DNA from: Blattabacterium cuenoti
GTDB taxonomy: Bacteria; Bacteroidota; Bacteroidia; Flavobacteriales; Blattabacteriaceae
NCBI RefSeq assembly: GCF_014251755.1
Contig: NZ_CP059200.1
Location: forward strand, 102,286-166,285
Reading direction: 5' to 3'
Length of the DNA: 64,000 bases
Shown here one piece after another: positions 22,038-51,976 of the stretch (position 1 is its first letter; each line of letters starts with the position of its first letter). The notes under the pieces were generated by a model. The model had not been told where the DNA came from. It saw only the letters and a program-made list of their open reading frames with translations, and did no database searches. Position numbers and translations under genes: made by a program.

Positions 22038-22757
22038 ATGTCAGGACACAGCAAATGGTCAAATATACAACATAGAAAATCAAATCAAGATTCCTTAAAA
22101 TCTAAAAAATTTTCTAAAATTATTAAAGAAATTTCTATAGCTGTAAAAGAATCAGGAACAAATAATCCTCGTTTTAGAAATGCAATTTTAAATGCAAAAT
22201 CAATAAATATCCCTAAAAATACCATAGAAAAAGCTATAAAAAAAGCTTTACAAATCAAAACAAATAATTATAAAAATTTAAATTTAGAAGGACTGATTCA
22301 TGGAATCAGTATCATTATAGAATGTATGACGAATAACAATATTCGAACGATATCCAATATTAGAACACTTTTGAATAAAAATGAAGGAAGATTATGTCAT
22401 AATGGGGAATTAACCCATTTTTTTAAAAAAATGGGTGTTTTTTATATAAAAAAAAAAGACATTCATTTTTCAATAGAAGATTTTGAACTCATGATAATAG
22501 ATTTTGGGGCTCAAGATTTTAAAATAAATCACAATATGATTTATTTATACATAGATTTTGAATCCTTTAGATCTATGAAAAATAATTTGGAAAAATTAAA
22601 AATACTTCATGAGTATAAAGTGGAACATATCCCCAAACAAATTCAATCTATTTCAGAAGAAAAAAAGAACAAAGTTTTAAACTTAATTGATAAACTTTAT
22701 CTGAATGAAGATGTAGAAAATATTTACTACAATTTATATAATGAAAATAAAAAGTAA
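22038..22757 (+). CDS. yebC: YebC/PmpR family protein
   Basis: The 239-residue protein has the diagnostic N-terminus [14 protein letters not shown], the [14 protein letters not shown] segment and the later [20 protein letters not shown] block. The family is known as transcriptional regulators in some species and as translation factors that help ribosomes at proline-rich stretches. The stop codon lies within the 5' strand of the predicted P1 helix of the RNase P RNA that follows, so the two genes abut or overlap. Confidence 0.93.
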
Positions 22758-23075
22758 AATGTCCTATCGCATTTTTTAAATAAAAACAATAAATTAAATA
22801 ATGAGGAAAGTCCGGACACCGTAGAGCAACACAATGGGTAACACCCATCCATCGTAAGATGAGGAATAGTGCAACAGAAAGAATATACAGACAGGATGAT
22901 ATATTGTTGATTGCTGTAGTGAAATCATGTAAACTCTGTGTGGTGAAATGCCATGTATACCGGAAAACTAGCTCGGTTGAAACCGGGGGGTAGGCAGATT
23001 GAGATCGTGGGTAACCTAGATCCTAGATAAATGATAGGGTGTGAAAACAGAATCCGGCTTACAATTTTACTTTTT
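22749..23075 (+). ncRNA. rnpB: RNase P RNA
   Basis: The conserved 5' core GAGGAAAGUCCGGACACC lies at 22803-22820, the internal AGUGCAACAGAAAG block near 22868-22881, and the 3' core ACAGAAUCCGGCUUAC at 23047-23062. Flanking bases form a 12-pair helix (22749-22760 with 23064-23075) that I take as P1, so the ends are approximate. The RNA is the catalytic part of RNase P, which matures tRNA 5' ends. The tRNA-Ser gene starts 8 bases further on. The protein subunit gene rnpA is at 34507-34864 and is frameshifted. Confidence 0.93.
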
Positions 23076-23083
23076 GTATGGAG

Positions 23084-33940: not shown

Positions 33941-34516
33941 ATGGAATGGGTCAATTCGTTAATTAGTTGTTTTATGATACTTTTTAGCATTATAGATATA
34001 TTAGGTAATGCTCCTATAATTATGGGATTTAAATCAAAAGGAAACATTATAGACACCAAAAAAGTTGTAATTACTTCTCTTGTAATATTTTTATCTTTTC
34101 TTTTTTTAGGACAACCTATGCTTACAATCATTGGAGTTGATGTCCATTCTTTCTCTGTAGCGGGATCTATAGTATTGTTTTTCATTGGATTAGAAATGAT
34201 ATTAGGAATAGATCTTCATAAGGTTACGGAAAATGCTCAAACTTCTATTGTTCCAATATCCTTTCCCCTTATAGCTGGTCCTGGATCTTTAACAACTTTA
34301 ATTTCATTAAGAACAACTTATGACGTAAATATTATTCTTTTATCTCTTATTTTGAATATGATAGTTGTTTATTTTGTAATAGATAAATGTGATTTTATAG
34401 CCGAAAAAATAGGAAATAATGGATTGGATATTTTAAAGAAAATATTTGGAATTGTTTTATTAGCTTTTGCTGTAAAAATTTTTGGAGCAAATGCTAGTCA
34501 ATTATTTCAACAATAA
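33941..34516 (+). CDS. MarC family (UPF0056) membrane protein
   Basis: The 191-residue protein has six hydrophobic segments. Typical MarC motifs are present: FSIIDILGNAPIIMGF near the N-terminus, GVDVHSFSVAGSIVLFFIG, and VPISFPLIAGPGSLTTLISL in the centre. Function of the family is not settled; an early link to multidrug resistance was withdrawn. The gene converges on rnpA and the two overlap by 10 bases. The 173 bases upstream hold no gene I can see. Confidence 0.9.
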   Translation: MEWVNSLISCFMILFSIIDILGNAPIIMGFKSKGNIIDTKKVVITSLVIFLSFLFLGQPMLTIIGVDVHSFSVAGSIVLFFIGLEMILGIDLHKVTENAQTSIVPISFPLIAGPGSLTTLISLRTTYDVNIILLSLILNMIVVYFVIDKCDFIAEKIGNNGLDILKKIFGIVLLAFAVKIFGANASQLFQQ

Positions 34517-34864
34517 TTTTTTATTATGTTATTGAAAATTTTTATAACAGATTCATTTACATTTTTAAATTCAGGTAAATAAAAAGCTTTATAAATCAAA
34601 ATTATGTCATAATAATTTTGATTTATAACATGTTTTTCAATCATGGATTTGTTCAACAAAAAAGAAGCTTTTAACAAACGTTTTATTCTATTCCTGTAAA
34701 CTGATTTTTTAAAATTTTTTTTTTACTAAAGTTCCAATCAGGTTGATTGATAAATTTTTTTCATTATTTATTTTTTGTAATAAAAAAACAGATAGGATAG
34801 GATACACAAACAAATATTTTCCGTTTTTTATTACTTCTTCAAAAATTTTTTTTTTGAATTTCAT
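34507..34864 (-). pseudogene. rnpA: RNase P protein component, frameshifted in a 10-base poly(A) tract
   Basis: From ATG 34864 the frame reads MKFKKKIFEEVIKNGKYLFV and then LIGTLVKKKF before a TAA at 34711-34709. Just before the stop is a run of ten A (minus strand; plus-strand T at 34715-34724). Removing one A restores LVKKNFKKSVYRNRIKRLLK and an open frame to TGA at 34507, giving 118 residues. That block is the RnpA signature (KKNFKKAVDRNRIKRL type). The remaining C-terminus (NYYDIILIYKAFYLPEF) also fits. Everything except the one base is intact, so slippage at the A run may still make protein. It starts 2 bases after fbp ends and so is cotranscribed with fbp. Confidence 0.88.
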
Positions 34865-34866
34865 TT

Positions 34867-36098: not shown

Positions 36099-36392
36099 TT
36101 AAAAATCAGGAATGGGTACTATTCCTGATACTTTATTTAAAGTTTGAATAATTTCTCTAAGATTAGGATCGTTACGCATCATTTCTTTCAGAGATAGTGT
36201 TTTTTCATTCTCTTGCTCTTGAGAAGTAGAAGAGGCTGATGCAATTTTTGTAGTTTGATCATCAGTTACTACAGTTTTAGTTTTTTTGATGATATCTGAT
36301 TTATCAATGATTCCAGATAAACCTTCATCATGACATGATGAAAAAAATATGATCGAAAACAACAAAAAGATGAAAATAAATATTTTTTTCAT
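36099..36392 (-). CDS. Small predicted lipoprotein, unknown function
   Basis: This 97-residue protein has a signal peptide (MKKIFIFIFLLFSIIFFSSC) whose Cys20 fits a lipobox and would be lipidated. The mature part is hydrophilic, with a Ser/Thr/Gln/Glu-rich linker and a C-terminal LKEMMRNDPNLREIIQTLNK helix. It stands alone, with its own terminator downstream and a divergent dut gene upstream. I do not recognise a family. Confidence 0.72.
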   Translation of the reverse strand: MKKIFIFIFLLFSIIFFSSCHDEGLSGIIDKSDIIKKTKTVVTDDQTTKIASASSTSQEQENEKTLSLKEMMRNDPNLREIIQTLNKVSGIVPIPDF

Positions 36393-36450
36393 TTTTTATC
36401 GATTTTTATTCCGTAATATAAATCTTTTTTTTTAAATTATTGCAATAAAT

Positions 36451-36846
36451 ATGTGCATTACTATAAAAATATTTAATACTTCATCTAATCCTTTACCTAA
36501 TTATGAAACAAAAGGATCCTCTGGAATGGACTTAAGAGCTTATTTAAAAAATAATATTACAATTCTTTCTATGGAAAGAAAAATTATAAAAACAGGTTTA
36601 TTTATTGAAATTCCTAAAGGATACGAAGGACAAATTCGACCAAGGAGTGGTTTAGCTTTAACTCATGGAGTCACTGTATTAAATGATCCAGGAACTATAG
36701 ATTCTGATTACAGAGGAGAAATAAAAATATTATTATTGAATTTGTCCAATCATCCTTTTATTATAGAAAATGGAAATAGAATTGCTCAAATTATATTTTA
36801 TAAATATGAAAAAATAAAATGGAATCCTAAATTAATTAGAAAATAA
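36451..36846 (+). CDS. dut: dUTP diphosphatase lacking C-terminal motif V
   Basis: The 131-residue protein has trimeric dUTPase motifs I-IV: GSSGMDLRA, RPRSGLAL, GTIDSDYRGEI and NRIAQIIF. Motif V (RGxGGFGSTG type), which closes over the active site, is missing: the protein ends YKYEKIKWNPKLIRK. No frame downstream encodes the motif, and the next gene begins its 3' end 4 bases later. dUTPase makes dUMP for thymidylate synthase and keeps uracil out of DNA. Activity of the shortened enzyme is uncertain. Confidence 0.9.
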   Translation: MCITIKIFNTSSNPLPNYETKGSSGMDLRAYLKNNITILSMERKIIKTGLFIEIPKGYEGQIRPRSGLALTHGVTVLNDPGTIDSDYRGEIKILLLNLSNHPFIIENGNRIAQIIFYKYEKIKWNPKLIRK

Positions 36847-36849
36847 ATT

Positions 36850-37365
36850 CTACTTTTCTGTTTTCATTAAAATGAAAATGCTATAATTTAATATATCTAT
36901 ATAATTATCATAAATTTTGTCATAAAAATTTTTTATGTTTAAAAAATTTTTTTCCATATTTTGAATTCTAAGTAATTTTTGAAAGATTATATCTTTCATA
37001 GAGGAAAGTTCCATAATTTTCCATGCTTCTTCATAATCAAAATTTTTTTTAATCATTAAAAATTTTGCTTTTTTTGTATATAGATCATAATAATGATATA
37101 TTTTTTTTTTGATTAAAATCAACATTTTCATATCTATAATATTTTTTTTTATAAAAAAAATAGCAATTATAGATAAATTGATGACATCAACCCATTGATT
37201 TTTTTTAATTTTCAAAAAAATAATATTATTTATATTTTTTTTTTGAAAATCTTTTTCTTTATCCATTTTAGAATTTTCAATTAATTTTTTTTTAAAAAAA
37301 AATTTACATTTTTTTAATATCACATCATATTGAACAGAAGTCTCAATATTTTTATTATTATTCAT
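36850..37365 (-). CDS. DUF1599-type protein (nucleotide modification-associated domain)
   Basis: The 171-residue protein has a second half that matches DUF1599: KNFDYEEAWKIMELSSMKDI, FQKLLRIQNMEKN and NYIDILNYSIFILM. The first half looks like a worn copy of the same unit (VQYDVILKKCKFFFKKK, VDVINLSIIAIFF), as in two-repeat DUF1599 proteins of Bacteroidetes. The molecular role is unknown. It directly follows the VRR-NUC gene with no gap and ends 3 bases from the convergent dut. Confidence 0.72.
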   Translation of the reverse strand: MNNNKNIETSVQYDVILKKCKFFFKKKLIENSKMDKEKDFQKKNINNIIFLKIKKNQWVDVINLSIIAIFFIKKNIIDMKMLILIKKKIYHYYDLYTKKAKFLMIKKNFDYEEAWKIMELSSMKDIIFQKLLRIQNMEKNFLNIKNFYDKIYDNYIDILNYSIFILMKTEK

Positions 37366-37731
37366 TTAATTATTTAAATATTGATCTATATAAATTTTTG
37401 CTTGATCAAAAGAATAACAAATATTTACATTCCAATTGTATGAATTTAATATATTTATAATTTTGGTTTGATTTTTCGTTAATTTATTCGGTTTAATTTT
37501 AAATTCTAAAGCCATACCTGTTATTCCTTTTTTAGGCATAGGTACCAATAAATCAGGCATACCAGGTCTTAATCTCATTACCTTAATAAGAAATCTTTCA
37601 TAAAAACTCCTCTTAGATTCATTATGTGGATGAAAATAAAATATATGAGGATACTTATAATCTAAATAATCACAAACAGAACTATGTAATAATTGTTCTT
37701 TTCCAAGAAAATTTTTATACCAATTTTTCAT
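37366..37731 (-). CDS. VRR-NUC domain nuclease-like protein
   Basis: The 121-residue protein has the PD-(D/E)XK nuclease pattern of the VRR-NUC family: RPGMPDLLVPMP (Asp) then ALEFKIKPNKLTKNQ (Glu-x-Lys) and a C-terminal WNVNICYSFDQAKIYI. Stand-alone VRR-NUC proteins are common in phages and are structure-specific DNA nucleases. Here the gene sits between nrdB (1-base gap) and the DUF1599 gene, so it appears to be a fixed operon member and not recent phage DNA. Confidence 0.85.
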   Translation of the reverse strand: MKNWYKNFLGKEQLLHSSVCDYLDYKYPHIFYFHPHNESKRSFYERFLIKVMRLRPGMPDLLVPMPKKGITGMALEFKIKPNKLTKNQTKIINILNSYNWNVNICYSFDQAKIYIDQYLNN

Positions 37732-37732
37732 G

Positions 37733-38821
37733 TTAAGATTCGCAAGAAATACATTCAGATCCTCCCAAATTTTGTTTTTTATTTTTTAATAAAATTTTTA
37801 ATATTTTATTTTCTGATTTTTTTTTATCATACACATTTTCTAAATTAGAAGAAATAAAAAGATCATCATTCCAATCTTCATTAGGTTTACTATATCCCGT
37901 TTCACGATTATCAAAAAAATCAGTTTGTTGCTCTCCAGATATTGTTATATAAAACCAATCCATATTAGATAACAGACCCTTATTGATATGATATGAATCA
38001 TTCAACCCTAATTCTCTCAATTTCAAATTTGCTCTATCTTTCATAAAATTTTTAAGATCTTCTTTTTTAATAGTAGAAAGATCTCCTTTTCCAAATATTT
38101 GATCAATAAAAATAAATTCATTCCTCAATGCTAAATCTATTCCTTGATAAACAAATTTTTCAACCGATTTTTTTAATCCCTCATTTTCCTCACAAAAAGT
38201 ACGAAATATTTTACATCCCGCTTCCGAATGTAAAGATTCATCTCTAACAGAAAAAATAATTTGTTGACCTATTCCTTTTAAACGATTTGATTTTCTGAAA
38301 GAAAGTAAAACTGCAAAAGAAGAAAATAATTGTATTCCTTCTGCAGCTGCAGAAAATAAAGCAATGCTTCTCGCTATTTCTTTTTGATCGTACTGTCCAT
38401 GCGAGCTTTTTCTAATATCCATTAAAATTTTCAACTTATTCATTGTCGCTTCATCTTTCAAAAAAGCATGAAAATCATCTAAACCCAAAATATCATTCAA
38501 ATAAGAATAAGCTACAGCATGAATTGTTTCAAATGATCCAAAAGTTTGGCCCATCATTTTTATTTCAGGAATAGGAAACCACCTAGGAATCATTTCTGAC
38601 CAATAATTTCCAACTTCTGTTTCTGTTTGAGTAAATCCTTTTAAAATATCCCCAATTACATTTTTTTCCTGAAAAGAAAGATTTTCATTCCAATCATGAA
38701 TATCCGATTGCATATTAATCTCCGTATGTAACCAATGTGCATTTTGCTGTTTAAACCAATAATCATAAGCCCACTGATATTCAAAAGGTTTAAAATTTAA
38801 ACGATCTTTCGTTATACTCAT
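37733..38821 (-). CDS. nrdB: Ribonucleoside-diphosphate reductase, beta subunit
   Basis: The 362-residue protein has the class I di-iron features: TQTETEVGNYWSE, ETIHAVAYSYLND (His ligand and radical Tyr), AAAEGIQLFSSFAVL and RDESLHSEAGCKIF. It makes the tyrosyl radical used by NrdA. The C-terminus is Cys-containing (GGSECISCES). The alpha subunit is not in the window. It heads a nrdB, VRR-NUC, DUF1599 run, with a candidate promoter and palindrome upstream. Confidence 0.96.
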   Translation of the reverse strand: MSITKDRLNFKPFEYQWAYDYWFKQQNAHWLHTEINMQSDIHDWNENLSFQEKNVIGDILKGFTQTETEVGNYWSEMIPRWFPIPEIKMMGQTFGSFETIHAVAYSYLNDILGLDDFHAFLKDEATMNKLKILMDIRKSSHGQYDQKEIARSIALFSAAAEGIQLFSSFAVLLSFRKSNRLKGIGQQIIFSVRDESLHSEAGCKIFRTFCEENEGLKKSVEKFVYQGIDLALRNEFIFIDQIFGKGDLSTIKKEDLKNFMKDRANLKLRELGLNDSYHINKGLLSNMDWFYITISGEQQTDFFDNRETGYSKPNEDWNDDLFISSNLENVYDKKKSENKILKILLKNKKQNLGGSECISCES

Positions 38822-41112: not shown

Positions 41113-41537
41113 ATGATTTATAAAAAAAACGATGATATCGTATATATGAATACGGCGATTGAACATTCAAAATTTTCTTTTTGTAAAAAAAAAAAGTAGG
41201 AGCTGTTATAGTGAAAAATAGCCGAATCATATCGGATGGATATAACCGTACTCCAAATAGTTTTGATGATATCTGTGAAGATCATTACGGAAATACTAAA
41301 TGGTATGTCCTTCATGCAGAAGCAAATGCAATATTAAAAATGTCCTCTTCTTTTTTATCTTGTGAAGGAGCTTCCATATATATCACTCATTTTCCATGTA
41401 AAGAATGTTGTAAACTAATTTATTTATCTAATATAAAAAGAGTTATTTATTTATTACATGAAAAAAATGATGAAGAATTTTCTTTTTTAAGAAAATTGAG
41501 AATTAAAATAAAAAGACTAATTTCAACTAATTCATAA
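41113..41537 (+). pseudogene. Deoxycytidylate (dCMP) deaminase, frameshifted in an 11-base poly(A) tract
   Basis: From ATG 41113 the frame reads DDIVYMNTAIEHSKFSFCKK and stops just after a run of eleven A (41184-41194). Adding one A (12 in total) joins it to VGAVIVKNSRIISDGYN and an open frame to 41537, giving 141 residues, the family length. The joined sequence SFC-KKKK-VGAVIV fits the conserved C-K-R-K-Q-V-G-A-x-I-V. Zinc motifs LHAEANAIL and FPCKECCKLI are intact. Slippage at the A run could restore the protein. A GTG at 41211 could start a shortened form. The product turns dCMP into dUMP for ThyA. Confidence 0.87.
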
Positions 41538-51514: not shown

Positions 51515-51976
51515 ATGTGTTTAGACTTTTATTTTATGAAAATAGCTTTAAAAGAGGCTTTTATTGCTTTTTATAAAAATGAAATTCCTATAGGTGCTGC
51601 AATTACATATCAAAATATAGTTATAGCAAAAGCTCATAATTTAACTGAAACTTTATGTGACATTACTGCACATGCAGAAATGTTAGTAATAAACTTAGCC
51701 TCTAATTATTTAAAAAAAAAATATATCAAAAAATGTACTTTATATGTGACCCTAGAACCATGTGTTATGTGTGCGGGAGCCCTATTTTGGTCTCAAATAG
51801 GACGAGTTGTTTGTGGAGCTTCTAATCCCTCAAAAAGAGGATTCATATATTCTGGAACTAAATTACATCCCCAAACAGAATTTGTATCTGGAATTATGAA
51901 AAATCAATGTAAAGCTCTGATACAAGAGTTTTTTTTTTATAAAAGAATCTATAAAAAGAAAAAAAAATTTATATAA
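51515..51976 (+). CDS. tadA: tRNA adenosine(34) deaminase TadA
   Basis: The 153-residue zinc deaminase has motif TAHAEMLVIN (His and catalytic Glu) and LEPCVMCAGALFWSQIGRVV (two Cys ligands). The N-terminus (FYFMKIALKEAFIAFYKNEI) matches TadA. It converts A34 to inosine in tRNA-Arg. Other nucleoside deaminases share this fold, but the PCVMCAGA and IGRVVCGA motifs favour TadA. It converges on dedA with an 8-base overlap. Confidence 0.88.
   Translation: MCLDFYFMKIALKEAFIAFYKNEIPIGAAITYQNIVIAKAHNLTETLCDITAHAEMLVINLASNYLKKKYIKKCTLYVTLEPCVMCAGALFWSQIGRVVCGASNPSKRGFIYSGTKLHPQTEFVSGIMKNQCKALIQEFFFYKRIYKKKKKFI

Follow-up and report, generated by a model that had tools for sequence, protein, structure and literature searches.

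A dCMP deaminase gene split at an eleven-A tract in most Blattabacterium genomes is probably kept in use by slippage during expression

The dCMP deaminase gene of Blattabacterium cuenoti is split between two reading frames at a run of eleven A, and the same tract is out of frame in most of the Blattabacterium genomes compared. Selection on both sides of the break indicates that the cell very probably restores the frame of this gene whenever it is expressed, and we consider it likely that the enzyme works with its frame restored in this way chiefly by RNA polymerase slippage on the run. The gene was found in a stretch of 64,000 nucleotides, here called the window, from a chromosome of 625,920 bases, and positions below are those of the window.

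The upstream part of the gene (41113–41199, plus strand) runs from an ATG at 41113 to a TAG at 41197–41199 that ends frame 0, and reads MIYKKNDDIVYMNTAIEHSKFSFCKKKK, 28 codons ending in SFCKKKK. The A-run at 41185–41195 is exactly 11 long and is the putative slip site; frame 0 across it is C-K-K-K-K-stop, ending in A_AAA_AAG followed by the TAG. The −1 frame stays open from 41196 up to a TAA at 41535–41537, a downstream part of 113 codons (41196–41537, plus strand) that encodes VGAVIVKNSRIISDGYN...HAEANAI...PCKECC... and carries the PF00383 zinc deaminase domain (Pfam, 5.6e-16). The junction of the joined product spans SFCKKKKVGAVIV. The sequence-only reading had proposed a dCMP deaminase split at an eleven-A tract, with an N-terminal part that ends FCKKKK and stops, and with zinc sites (HAE and PCxxC) and C-terminus intact; all of this was borne out.

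The in-frame copy of a relative aligns end to end with the solved dCMP deaminase 4p9c (residues 12–137, 3.9e-26), and the alignment includes the part upstream of the tract, SKLSFCKKKKVGAVIV on SQVSNCKRMKVGAIVV. The HAE and PCxxC zinc motifs and this full-length match are shared with known dCMP deaminases (4p9c; PF00383), unlike which the Blattabacterium gene is frame-broken, at the codons equivalent to CKRMK, the position of the poly-lysine stretch in 4p9c. By these similarities the predicted joined protein is filed as a member of the dCMP deaminase family, with the name ComEB left out; the filing is at family level only because the score falls under the NCBIfam ComEB equivalog cut-off (79.6 versus 219.45 bits). 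Two further members of the superfamily are encoded in the genome, namely a TadA-like ORF (C1:153812, window 51515–51976) and C1:498877, which from the gene set we take to be RibD.

The downstream dCMP deaminase protein is encoded in 49/49 Blattabacterium genomes, including the smallest (511 kb). The gene is out of frame at the tract in 33 genomes, with a pure A11 (−1) in 30, a pure A10 in two (G046 and G007) and a complex −1 case in one (G045). In the other 16 it is in frame, nine having a pure A12 and seven an interrupted 12-base tract. Strains were assigned to the hosts Panesthia (G016), Blattella (G042), Mastotermes (G043), Cryptocercus (G041), Blaberus (G044), Blatta (G045) and Nauphoeta (G046); the strains of Blaberus giganteus and Blattella germanica have A12. 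Alignment with related symbionts, proposed earlier as a check, therefore finds the gene kept throughout and the same tract out of frame in two-thirds of the genus sample. This outcome places the observation beyond chance and rules out a mutation private to this genome. Of the earlier description of one missing base as a lesion of this genome, the −1 break is real, but the description is incomplete, since most of the genus has A11, which may also be the ancestral length. Beside the dCMP deaminase gene of one further genome (G026, locus L192), ureC is just a short, stop-containing remnant of the urease alpha subunit, and urease has possibly been lost in that strain.

On a tree built from five neighbouring proteins, the in-frame or shifted state needs at least 10 changes, as compared with a mean of 13.7 for shuffled labels, and the eight long-branched genomes that form one deep clade all have A11. 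Under an Mk2 model the flip rates were 6.5 and 2.8 per amino-acid substitution per site, with an equilibrium of 70% shifted, and the shifted state occupies about 70% of the tree length. The root leans to shifted with a posterior of 0.64, a weak preference for A11 as the state possibly ancestral in the genus, and parsimony, at a cost of 12 versus 13, hardly separates the two states.

Tract interruptions are found in 7/16 in-frame and in 0/33 shifted copies (Fisher p = 1.3e-4, phylogeny ignored). They arose 4–5 times independently, all on in-frame branches, the chance of which is 0.009–0.003 given that ~70% of the tree is shifted. The purity of shifted tracts is partly mutational, because interrupted runs stop slipping at the DNA level, where only pure runs slip, and because AAG makes up only 6% of Lys codons; shifted lineages also never gain an interruption.

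In seven neighbouring genes (248 copies), 81 sense A-runs of at least 10 were in frame and 3 were broken, whereas of the 41 pure runs of the dCMP deaminase gene 32 were out of frame (p = 3e-18, phylogeny ignored). The three broken copies are all of rnhA (RNase H) and all at A-runs, of 10–13, in G047, G020 and G029 (loci L196, L203 and L213); rnhA is in frame in the other genomes. Few frame breaks were apparent in the genes of the window in 278 gene-by-genome comparisons with five relatives, among which apparent breaks in ftsL and aroB proved to be the gene's end and sequence upstream of the start, respectively, and a DedA-like gene retained one possible break close to its start. A general frame sloppiness of the genus was rejected on these comparisons and, since neighbouring A-runs are nearly all in frame, on that control as well.

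For the downstream part, dN/dS between shifted copies was 0.255 (95% CI 0.194–0.339) and between in-frame copies 0.243, and for the 14 codons upstream of the tract it was 0.32 (95% CI 0.14–0.76) between shifted copies. These are values obtained by the Nei–Gojobori method with codon bootstrap; those for shifted copies come from eight separate pairs of shifted genomes, within which branches may have been in frame part of the time. The last 14 codons up to the Cys are conserved across 48 genomes, with Ser at −2 and Cys at 0 in 48/48, and Ala at −9 and Ser at −5 in 47/48. Both halves are under purifying selection, shifted copies like in-frame ones, and evolve as parts of a single working protein.

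A second gene broken at a poly(A) tract within the 64 kb, as had been claimed, was found in rnpA, which encodes the protein component of RNase P (about 34501–34866, minus strand). Its halves are out of frame at an A10 in the sense direction (34715–34724, minus strand; T10 on the plus strand). The gene is broken in 38/48 genomes and in both directions: 20 copies are −1, 17 are +1 and one, that of the Blattella strain, carries a stop in frame. The remaining 10 are in frame, and in most of them the linker is the longer one (30 nt in 8 copies, 27 nt in 2). All broken copies have a run of at least 9 A, and runs shorter than 9 occur in 0/38 broken versus 3/10 in-frame copies (p = 0.007). The ratio of +1 to −1 is 17:20 in rnpA versus 2:30 at the dCMP deaminase tract (p = 3e-4), so the two tracts differ in sign bias, the latter being strongly −1. 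The opposite sign noted earlier for the two genes is merely formal, since rnpA has one A too many against a 9-A reading but equally two too few against 12. In Blattabacterium strain Bge, rnpA was described as the only pseudogene (PMC2768785), which matches the in-frame stop in the Blattella strain. The same poly(A) stretch is broken there, with a stop at residue 53, and both halves are kept across the genus; the Bge copy differs in having two indels and the in-frame stop, whereas the shifts of rnpA in the genus go both ways. The RNase P RNA gene is intact in the window (22751–23077).

We propose slippage of RNA polymerase on the uninterrupted run of 11 A, which would produce a mixed mRNA pool. 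Messages with 12 A, that is, one extra, would yield full-length dCMP deaminase, and faithful 11-A messages a dead-end peptide of 28 residues. Since some of the product would always be correct, DNA lengths of 11 and 12 A would be nearly equivalent and the genus would flip between them. An impure run would end the rescue while the gene is out of frame, and such tracts are absent among the 33 shifted copies. On this proposal corrected transcripts should exist, RNA polymerase rather than the ribosome should do most of the correcting, and enzyme output would be lowered.

Slippage of this kind has precedents in Buchnera and Blochmannia (Tamas et al. 2008; Wernegreen et al. 2010; as presented in PMC3017870 and PMC5009743). 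The cases as presented there resemble ours in being from AT-rich insect endosymbionts and in having a single indel in an A-run of at least 9, a gene otherwise intact, a shift shared by related species and selection that is not relaxed. In Blattabacterium the break likewise lies inside an uninterrupted run, with all other shifted copies but one being pure A10 or A11, the otherwise intact gene is kept in every genome while the shift recurs across relatives, and purifying selection is not relaxed. The differences from the cases presented are that Blattabacterium belongs to the Bacteroidota, that other genes are involved, that most of the 49 genomes are in the shifted state, and that the comparison here is one of DNA sequences. 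Corrected transcripts amount to 12–50% in the aphid and ant endosymbionts treated in PMC5009743, and cases of poly(A) slippage rescue in Blochmannia are among those given in PMC3017870. In Buchnera, insertions by RNA polymerase climb exponentially with run length up to 11; in its runs insertions exceed deletions, and errors are mostly single-base insertions (PMC5574713). This insertion bias fits the observation that A11, which would need one insertion, is far commoner than A10. Against slippage counts that the same study, which surveyed transcription indels across the whole Buchnera genome, detected no frame-restoring error (PMC5574713). Insertion-biased slippage alone also falls short for rnpA, where the frame that only a deletion or an insertion of two bases would correct is about as frequent as −1 (17 versus 20). 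RNA polymerase slippage on long A-runs is, by analogy, the known mechanism that could cover both genes. The earlier suggestion that such lesions are tolerated thanks to slippage fits best, with strong comparative support from the selection on both halves, the never-interrupted out-of-frame tract and the retention of the gene in every genome; its argument from opposite signs adds little.

Several other explanations of the split were weighed. A homopolymer error of sequencing or assembly is barely credible: pyrosequencing is prone to such errors, and the odd copy of the Blatta orientalis strain (G045), listed as 454, may be one, but a single length recurs in 30 genomes, the Illumina-sequenced Panesthia strain (G016) has A11, and an error source of this kind fails on the neighbouring A-runs, which are nearly all in frame. 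A decaying pseudogene, suggested by the frame-0 stop after 28 codons, is very improbable, given that the gene is present in every genome with its zinc motifs conserved, that its dN/dS is like that of in-frame copies and that the downstream part stays open almost to its usual end in all genomes; across the 49 genomes there was no sign of the relaxed selection, further lesions or loss in relatives that mark a pseudogene. The probability is practically negligible that the downstream part is translated separately from a GTG at 41211, alone or together with the N-terminal peptide. In this genome AGGAG stands eight bases upstream of that codon, and the GTG is also present in G016; however, the first 16 downstream codons lack an in-frame ATG, GTG or TTG in 31/33 shifted genomes, which rules out internal restart as a general explanation, and the upstream part is itself under selection. 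Copies with 11 and 12 A might also coexist in the DNA of one host, as in phase variation, the assembly showing the commoner. The fast flips on the tree do indicate that the tract mutates readily, but with A11 as the consensus in 30 genomes an intact minority would have to suffice everywhere, and we regard this as improbable.

Ribosomal −1 frameshifting would leave the mRNA at 11 A and have the ribosome slip back one base at A_AAA_AAG, the heptamer of E. coli dnaX. The heptamer lies in frame 0 as it does in dnaX, and the TAG follows it immediately, an order shared with the reversed dnaX arrangement (versions of dnaX exist with a zero-frame stop directly behind the slip site, PMC5009743), and the sign at the tract is strongly biased to −1. 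In 45/48 copies the first Val is encoded by GTA, the codon that gives rise to the TAG, versus 40% usage; yet GTA is also found in most in-frame copies and GCA at A42 is equally skewed (45/48), so the conserved Val codon was rejected as proof of a programmed stop. Such frameshifting would require the last A_AAA_AAG alone and would tolerate AAG at an early Lys, yet none of the shifted tracts is interrupted. Unlike dnaX, the tract gene was found without a stem-loop signal (the fold of the 95 nt downstream is no better than shuffles, z = −0.32, 70/200 as good) and, by eye, without a Shine–Dalgarno-like stimulator upstream; its whole A11 is pure, and its short product is a 28-residue peptide without a domain. 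The A10 copies and the +1 state of rnpA would be beyond repair by this route. We consider ribosomal −1 frameshifting a serious rival, if rather unlikely as the explanation, and polymerase and ribosome slippage may both act.

More speculatively, A11 might itself be selected as a genus-wide programmed slip site, used by the polymerase, the ribosome or the two together, through which the dose of dCMP deaminase is set, with a length of ~11 A held by selection and rnpA similar but looser; this we think unlikely.

Two other features of the window were observed. The genes dut, two other small genes and nrdB (36100–38821) lie between fbp and plsC only in the source genome, G016 and G002. Nine of the other genomes have nrdB and dut on a separate small contig, the known 3–4 kb Blattabacterium plasmid. 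From this arrangement it looks as if the plasmid had been integrated into the chromosome of a Panesthia-like clade. The GC skew changes sign near 44 kb of the window, from about −0.11 to +0.13, possibly marking a replication origin or terminus at ~44000.

While slippage rescue as a mechanism is already known from Buchnera and Blochmannia, in the literature searched, which covered few subscription papers, its genus-wide scale, the phylum and the genes concerned (dCMP deaminase and rnpA) appear to be new. Poly(A) slippage in Blattabacterium was not described in any paper found there, and a paper on Walczuchella, a related flavobacterial symbiont, merely remarks that genes with homopolymer frameshifts may keep their function (PMC3971599). 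With ~30 A11 and 9 A12 versions, the tract offers a ready natural experiment on how far a cell can rely on frame-correcting slippage. Standard annotation would label both genes pseudogenes, and the case, if the rescue is real, is a warning not to infer gene loss in AT-rich symbionts just from the reading frame. If the proposed rescue is true, two conserved symbiont genes, including that of the protein part of RNase P, would be expressed via routine decoding errors throughout the genus.
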